Assembly (NCBI GenBank): GCA_024641705.1
Contig: JAHECO010000004.1
Location: 62,001 to 126,000, forward strand
DNA length: 64,000 bases
Origin: Candidatus Kryptoniota bacterium
Lineage (GTDB): Bacteria > Bacteroidota > Ignavibacteria > Kryptoniales > JAKASW01
Reading direction: 5' to 3'
Shown here: positions 34,462 through 36,911 of the stretch, in pieces
How positions within the stretch are numbered: position 1 is the first letter of the stretch
How the letters are laid out: the number at the start of each line of letters is the position of its first letter
Program-made: the position numbers and the translations under genes
The notes under the pieces: model-generated
The model's database searches: none
What the model was told of the DNA's origin: nothing
Seen by the model: the letters and a program-made list of their open reading frames with translations, nothing else

Positions 34462-36911
34462 TTATTTCCTTCGGGGCCGTTTCGCCGGGCGTGCTTTTCC
34501 GGTCCGGCGGGCTTTCTTCTTCGGAGCTGCGAGAGACGGGGGGGCGAGCTCGTCAAGCTCCTGCTGGCTAAGTTCCTTCACGGGTTCCGGAATCTCTTCA
34601 TCCCTGACAGGGGCCTCCTCGGCAGGACCGCTCTGCTGTCCGGGGTACTCGATGCGCTTGTGGTAAATCCCCGATAGGACCGCCAGGAAGCTCTCTTTTA
34701 TTTTTGTAAGGTCGCCGAAAGTCAAATTCGTCTCGTCAAGCTGTCCCTCCTCGTACCTGCTCTTGACTATCGCGTCGATCATGGAAACTATGCTCCCCAT
34801 TGATTTTTCCTTCAACGAGCGGGTCGCAGCCTCGACGGAATCGGCAAGCATGACTATCGCGGTCTCCTTCGACCTGGGCCTCGGTCCGTCGTACCTGTAA
34901 TCGTCCGCACTGATGTCTCCTGTTGCAAAGGGTCTCTTCAGGGCCTTGCCGTAGAAATACGCGACGAGCGTGGTGCCGTGGTGCATCGGGATGAAATCCA
35001 GTATGCGCTGCGGAAGGTGATACTTCCTGCCGAGCTCCACGCCCTCTGTAACATGGGACATGACCATCTGCACGCTGATGTCGGGAGGGAGCCAGTCGAC
35101 ATCTGCACGCTGATGTCGGGAGGGAGCCAGTCGTGCTTCGATTTGTTTGAGTCCATCGTGTTCTCGATGAAATACTCCGGCTTCAGCGTTTTGCCGATGT
35201 CGTGGTAGTACGCCCCGACGCGGGCGAGTATCGGATTGGCGCCGACAGCCTCGGCGGCCTTTTCGGCCAGCGTTCCCACGATGATGGAGTGGTGGAACGT
35301 TCCCGGTGCCTTCTGTGAAAGCTCGCGCAGCAGAGGCTGGTTGAAGTCGGAAAGCTCGAGCAACGTGAGGTCGGTGGCGATGTTGAATACCTTCTCGAAG
35401 AATATCAGCAGCCCGAAAGTGATGATCGGCGAGAGGACGGAGTTAACCGCGATGAGCGAGAAATCGGCGAGTATTGTCGAAGCGTCCTCGGCCCTCTGGA
35501 AAGAGACGGCGAGAGTCGCCACCGCATATCCGAGGAATATGAAGACGAGGCTTCTGAAGATCTGCGTTCTGTTCTTGATGTCGCGGACGGTGTATACTGC
35601 AAGTGCTCCCGCGCTGAGCGCAGTGAATGCCGCGCTGAAATCGTTTCCTTTCATCGCTCCGACAAGAAGGGCGATGGCGACAGTTGCCTGGAACGCGACG
35701 CGCGAATCGAAAACGATCGTCAGTATCATCGATGCGACGGGTACCAGGACGAGGTACTGCACAGGGAGAGCCGTCTGGGCGGTGAACGCGAAATACATGA
35801 GCAGCCCCTCGAAAAGGATGAGCACGGCTATCAGCAGGAGCATTTTGTTGTTGTAGAAAACTTTCTTCCTGAAGAGGAACAGGTAGATGCTCAGCAGGCC
35901 GATGATGACGAGCATCATGAGGAACTTGCCGCCGTACTGGAGCATGATGTCCGCGGCGCCGGTCCTTTCCTGGAGTGCCTTCTCCAGCGAGTCCAGCTTG
36001 AGCTTGATGTCGTTTGTTATCCGGTCGTGTTTGCCGATGATGCGCTCGTTCTCCTTGACGAATCCGACCGTCTTCGGGACAAGGTCGACCGCCGCGTTTA
36101 TCTCGCGCTGGGTCTGGGTCCTGTTGTATGAAAGGTTAGGAAGAACCTGCGAAGCGATCGCGGAAGCGAGTATCTGCGAGGTCGTCGTGTCCCCCTTGAG
36201 CATGCTGAGCGCCGCGAGGTCGAGCTGGTTGGCCACGTCCTGGAGTGTTAGAACCTGCTCGAGCGGCAGAGGGGTCTCTGAATTCCTGTGACGAACCACG
36301 ATCACCGAGGAGCCTACCTGGTCTCTCGGCCTGTCTATGATGCCTGTCTGATAATCGCTGGCCAGTATAGATGTGACGGTCGGAGCGAGCGAGCCGATAC
36401 GCTGCAGCATGGCCGGGTTGCGGTAGAGATTGACCAGGAGCTGGTGCCAGTCCGTGCTGGAAAATCTGTACGAAAAGTTCTGGAGTATGTTATACAATAC
36501 GACCGAATCCCTGGCGAACGTTGCTCTGTTCCTCTCCCGTTCTGTCTTCAGCTGGAGCTGGAGGGCGCTCTGGACCTGCGAGATGAATGCCGAAACGGAG
36601 TCGAGACGATATCTCTCTATCTCAACGCGGTCGAATACAGGCTTCACGTTCTCGACGGCCTCTTTCACTTCCTTCTGGTACTCGGCGGCATCCTTGTATA
36701 TCGGGAACGAAAACGGGGCGATCACGTCCTCATGTGTCCAGATGGTCCCGACGTCGTAGTGGATCGTCAGCTGGCTCTGGGAGGGAGCCAGTATGGTAAC
36801 GGCGAGGACGAGCCCGATAAAGAGCAGAACCTTGATCGTTATGCTTCTTTCGAAGTCTATTCCTTTGAGTTTCCGAAGACCCTGTCTTAATTTCGCGAAG
36901 AAATCAGCCAT
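34462..36911 (-). pseudogene. PgpH-like 7TM-HD phosphohydrolase with frameshift
   Basis: Read across one break, the minus strand encodes about 804 residues: a cytosolic start and first helix (about 27-45), an extracytoplasmic 7TMR-HDED region (to about 310), about seven helices and a cytosolic HD domain with HHSIIVG (about 540) and YYHDIGKT (H570, D571). PgpH enzymes hydrolyse cyclic di-AMP. After DISVQM the frame is lost because a 33-bp segment is repeated (35066-35098 and 35101-35133), adding 35 bases; the second frame continues at VMSHVTEGVELGRKYHLPQRI to the end. As written, the protein loses the distal HD residues (MHHGT). The start at 36911 follows GAGG. Confidence 0.85.
35066..35133 (+). 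repeat. 33-bp tandem duplication causing the frameshift
   Basis: Two perfect 33-bp copies, 35066-35098 and 35101-35133, separated by the 2-base filler AC. Removing one copy plus the filler (35 bases) restores one continuous reading frame. Confidence 0.9.

Follow-up and report, generated by a model that had tools for sequence, protein, structure and literature searches.

Organization of the pgpH locus

The analyzed window, a 64,000-nt stretch of a single contig, contains on its minus strand a pgpH gene divided between two reading frames. The 5' part (604 codons; 35100..36911, minus strand) encodes the extracellular 7TMR-HDED domain, the 7TM region, and the start of the HD domain with the HDIG motif. 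The 3' part (34462..35097, minus strand) lies in a displaced frame and consists of 11 repeated codons followed by the 200 remaining codons, which carry the SHV, MHHGT, and LADS motifs and end at the stop codon. As assembled, the pgpH frame runs from the ATG at 36911 to a stop at 34938 and specifies 657 aa, the last 53 of which form a foreign tail read after the frameshift and closed by a premature stop (34938..35099, minus strand). The single-copy frame comprises 804 codons, with 604 before and 200 after the extra 35 bases, which agrees with the proposal of an earlier note on this DNA that deleting 35 bases would restore an 804-residue protein.

The same note had assigned the gene to PgpH, and both halves uphold the assignment. 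Pfam matches in the 5' part are 7TMR-HDED, 7TM-7TMR_HD, and the first 48 positions of the HD domain, and the displaced 3' part covers HD positions 55-115; the domain order is thus that of PgpH, with HD complete only across both frames. The two parts also match residues 4-80 and 73-221, respectively, of the Listeria PgpH HD domain (4s1b). Seven manganese ligands are known in Listeria PgpH, namely H514, H543, D544, H580, H604, H605, and D648 (PMC8177086). The break splits the HD domain between D544 and H580 (Listeria numbering), leaving three ligands before it (in GTFHHS and YHDIGK) and four after it (H580, H604, H605, and D648, in SHV, MHHGT, and LADS). The seven ligands are not united in one protein in the window gene; the relatives have the motifs in one frame. 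Since the 657-aa frame ends with the foreign tail, no single frame encodes a protein with a complete active site. The frameshift removes four of the seven HD metal ligands, so the allele is almost certainly null, with a predicted loss of activity.

The frameshift is caused by a tandem array at 35065-35133 (Tandem Repeats Finder; period 35, 100% match). Direct comparison resolves it into two identical 34-bp copies, the first on the plus strand at 35065..35098 (the downstream copy in the gene) and the second at 35100..35133 (the upstream copy), separated by a single filler base at 35099 (A on the plus strand, T on the gene strand), all three being features of the minus-strand gene. The order on the gene strand is ...CACGACTGGCTCCCTCCCGACATCAGCGTGCAGATG-T-CGACTGGCTCCCTCCCGACATCAGCGTGCAGATG-GTCATG.... 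The 35-base tandem event described earlier therefore stands, although its copy and filler sizes of 33 bp and 2 bases have to be corrected to 34 bp and 1 base.

Adjacent repeats were searched for in stretches sampled from the same assembly (2.53 of 4.62 Mb). Besides the pgpH array, those of at least 25 bp amount to a 7-bp microsatellite and a satellite of 42 bp found at two contig ends. A perfect adjacent 34-bp repeat is far beyond chance expectation: barring the satellite and the microsatellite, it is the only one in the scanned 2.53 Mb. The 42-bp satellite, GTCTCCGAGACACTCCGGACCGTCAGTTTACCGCTCCCGACC, occupies L078:1-163 and L162:1-77 (ends of contigs C18 and C83), and the assembly probably breaks at these ends due to this array. 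An array resembling CRISPR, with GTTTCAATCCACGCGCCCGCGTGGGGCGCGAC as its 32-bp repeat, is located on contig C2 of the same genome (L148:6547-8250, about 126.5-128.3 kb of the contig); part of it uses a second repeat variant, and it contains a 98-bp repeat-spacer-repeat duplication at a distance of 268.

Ancestral state and age of the duplication

The first 600 residues of PgpH have a hit in 75 of the 80 relatives, and none of these hits contains an internal stop. The same-genus matches (n = 11) have open frames of 807-843 aa, with one exception of 720 aa at a contig edge, compared with 723 aa from stop to stop for the window frame. Seven named close relatives, all metagenome-assembled genomes designated "Bacteroidetes bacterium", have a single copy of the unit, with the 3' part continuing in frame without interruption across the site, and preserve the order of the neighboring genes (HAD hydrolase, xerD, M50 protease, lysC, and lysA). 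One copy, an unbroken frame, and the same gene order in all seven indicate that the single copy is ancestral. The frameshift claimed earlier is supported by both sides of this comparison, the 657-aa product with its foreign tail in the window and the single-copy, read-through genes of the relatives. No other species in the genome collection had an exact 30-base match to the unit, and neither a second intact pgpH nor a second single-copy locus was found in the genome's own assembly.

Signs of relaxed selection on the broken gene were looked for and not seen. In comparisons with relatives, both the 5' and the 3' parts have dN/dS values of 0.05-0.08 where these are computable (synonymous sites are near saturation), similar to those of the intact neighbors lysC, M50, and xerD. 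Counted at sites with agreement among four outgroups, 8 amino-acid changes fall on the window lineage and 18 on the nearest sister in the 5' part, and 2 and 7, respectively, in the 3' part. Synonymous divergence between the window and the nearest sister is above 1. A signature of purifying selection in both halves, together with a synonymous divergence of this size, implies an insertion that is young relative to the species split; as judged from these substitution patterns, the duplication arose long after the window lineage and its nearest sister had separated. The recency suggested in the earlier note is thereby supported by neighbor-like constraint on both halves and by the single-copy state of the relatives. 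An artefactual duplication would go with the same constraint just as well, so the constraint informs on the age of the insertion and not on its reality.

Mutation or artefact

We regard a real, single, and very recent mutation, in which the tandem duplication of 34 bp, plus one further base, frameshifted pgpH, as the probable explanation of the locus. The chief competing possibility, considerably less likely though the most serious of the alternatives, is an error of sequencing, library preparation, or assembly, in which case the organism would hold one intact pgpH copy. Assembly errors commonly yield spurious pseudogenes (PMC11017572), no decay is visible elsewhere in pgpH, and the allele would eliminate the genome's only PgpH-type enzyme, all of which speak for an artefact. 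The structure of the assembly points the other way. Contig ends of this genome share 119, 120, or 121 bases with one another and never more, and of three N gaps examined as possible sources of duplicated flanks at scaffold joins, one (C92) has its scaffold edge exactly 121 bases inside a repeat, the other two having no k-mer signature. From the way in which such assemblers work, shared ends of at most 121 bases point to a de Bruijn graph whose k was about 121. At that size a single k-mer would hold the whole 69-bp array, so the words joining the two copies must come from reads, and reads with two copies probably existed. A de Bruijn artefact is expected where a repeat is at least as long as k or lies at a contig join; the repeat here is 34 bp against a k of about 121, and the array is internal to a contig of 200,608 bp, with no Ns nearby.

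Further observations count against an artefact. The junction with its extra T cannot arise by collapsing or looping of single-copy sequence. The assembly marks joins that it could not close with N runs (two of 10 and one of 100), and none of these is found at the pgpH array. The absence of a second such duplication in the 2.53 Mb scanned indicates that the assembly has no general tendency toward this error. The assembly-error option raised in the earlier note is made unlikely by the contig ends and by this uniqueness, and an artefact of library PCR or amplification, present at high coverage, retains some probability. When reads are not at hand, findings of this type can usefully be weighed against the assembler k that shared contig ends reveal.

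Reversion, switching, and residual function

Under the mutation reading, the two 34-bp copies can mechanically pair out of register, and the loss of 35 bases would recreate the ancestral arrangement. Loss of one copy via the repeat would bring back the old frame, and some cells of the population may be intact. Published measurements of how often tandem repeats of such a length lose a copy were sought, and nothing usable was found. The step from a revertible mutation to an evolved phase-variable switch, in which the copy number of the 34-bp unit would flip pgpH on and off, appears very improbable to us. Adjacent direct 34-bp repeats can drop a copy, the remainder of the pgpH frame is intact, and switching by tandem-repeat copy number does exist, e.g., in Mycobacterium tuberculosis promoters (PMC12817950). 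However, a phase-variable locus should vary in copy number among strains or relatives, and the repeat is present in no relative examined, all of which have a single copy; the genome's own assembly holds one pgpH locus only. Moreover, there are only two copies, and creation of a second copy de novo is rare, so that the on-to-off direction would not be fast. Of the "reversible switch" proposed earlier, reversibility survives as a mechanical possibility, whereas an evolved switch has left no sign. We give equally little credence to a population-level on/off switch that would raise c-di-AMP in some cells of a Bacteroidota species through repeat-mediated loss and regain of the pgpH frame. The evidence looks like one mutation caught early, ordinary and in principle revertible.

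Residual function of the broken gene, by ribosomal frameshifting or by two complementing fragments, is likewise highly doubtful, for although both halves are still conserved and a C-terminal part of 203 aa could begin at an available GTG/ATG, recency accounts for the conservation, and the split inside HD would put four ligands on a soluble fragment and the other three on a membrane fragment.

Predicted effect on c-di-AMP

The c-di-AMP set of the genome consists of one DAC-domain cyclase and one PgpH, and a stand-alone NrnA-type DHH-DHHA1 protein (331 aa) is also encoded. Mutants of Enterococcus faecalis that had lost pgpH contained more c-di-AMP (PMC11633384), and in Porphyromonas gingivalis, a member of the Bacteroidota, a PgpH-type homologue, unlike a phosphodiesterase, did not lower c-di-AMP (PMC9259658). 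An increase in c-di-AMP following pgpH loss, as put forward in the earlier note, is a plausible prediction by analogy with E. faecalis. PgpH is absent in five relatives, three of which are also without a DAC match, while G007 and G067 have DAC. Given these absences, parts of the class may be able to do without pgpH. G021, G049, and G067, which are near-complete genomes from a single family, are without PgpH; two of them also are without DAC, and one keeps it, which suggests that c-di-AMP signalling was lost in part of this family.

If the mutation is real, the genome's only PgpH-type enzyme would have been hit by a recent null allele that arose in nature and can revert, in a background where the cyclase is still encoded, and the allele could hint at selection for higher c-di-AMP under natural conditions. 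It is a single allele in a single assembly, and otherwise an ordinary frameshift.

Possible origin of the duplication

A 7-bp perfect inverted repeat, CGACATC-AGCGTGCA-GATGTCG, spans the junction (35097..35118, minus strand), and its inner 4 bp (CATC/GATG) were already present in the single-copy sequence, where CATC-AGCGTGCA-GATG at the end of the duplicated segment forms a 4-bp fold-back. If the 3' GATG is extended along its own strand, the bases gained are, in order, T, C, and G, i.e., the filler and then the two bases that open the second copy, so that TCG would be templated by the CGA of CGACATC, as in a quasipalindrome template switch. The chance of such templating is about 0.13% (0.0013 per random endpoint and strand, with random filler), rising to 0.5% with one base fewer and to 2% for the filler alone, in a test devised after the junction had been seen. 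The duplication lengthens the stem from 4 to 7 bp, as also seen in the predicted fold, the overall fold being not unusual (z = -1.36).

A possible sequence of events would start with a stalled DNA polymerase, whose new 3' end GATG would fold back on CATC; the folded end would then copy T-C-G from its own strand, and the extended end would re-anneal through CG 34 bases upstream, so that the segment was copied again. The junction is suggestive of such a polymerase template switch, with the post hoc choice of the test in mind. Ku/LigD end joining was considered as a source of the duplication and rejected: no PF02735 match to Ku was found in the genome, which makes classical bacterial end joining unlikely.

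Comparison with known systems

The closest protein counterpart is PgpH of Listeria monocytogenes (Lmo1466; HD domain 4s1b/4s1c), with which the window gene shares the domain order and the ligand motifs. Its HD halves align to the Listeria HD domain at 6e-22 and 5e-39, yet, unlike in Lmo1466, the domain is split over two frames by the 35 extra bases. As a truncating mutation of pgpH, the allele resembles the loss-of-function alleles of E. faecalis (PMC11633384); those were selected by antibiotics and had a demonstrated rise in c-di-AMP, whereas for the window allele such a rise is a prediction.

With the phase variation of M. tuberculosis Erdman (PMC12817950), the locus has in common adjacent repeats of tens of bases whose copy number can change. 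The Erdman repeats are recurrent and located in promoters, in contrast to the one unique two-copy allele in the coding region of pgpH. Template switching associated with quasipalindromes is known in Escherichia coli (PMC7202029), and as in those mutations, fold-back of the nascent strand would template bases that make an inverted repeat more perfect (from 4 to 7 bp here). The difference from the E. coli quasipalindrome mutations is that the putatively templated bases here accompany a 34-bp direct duplication.
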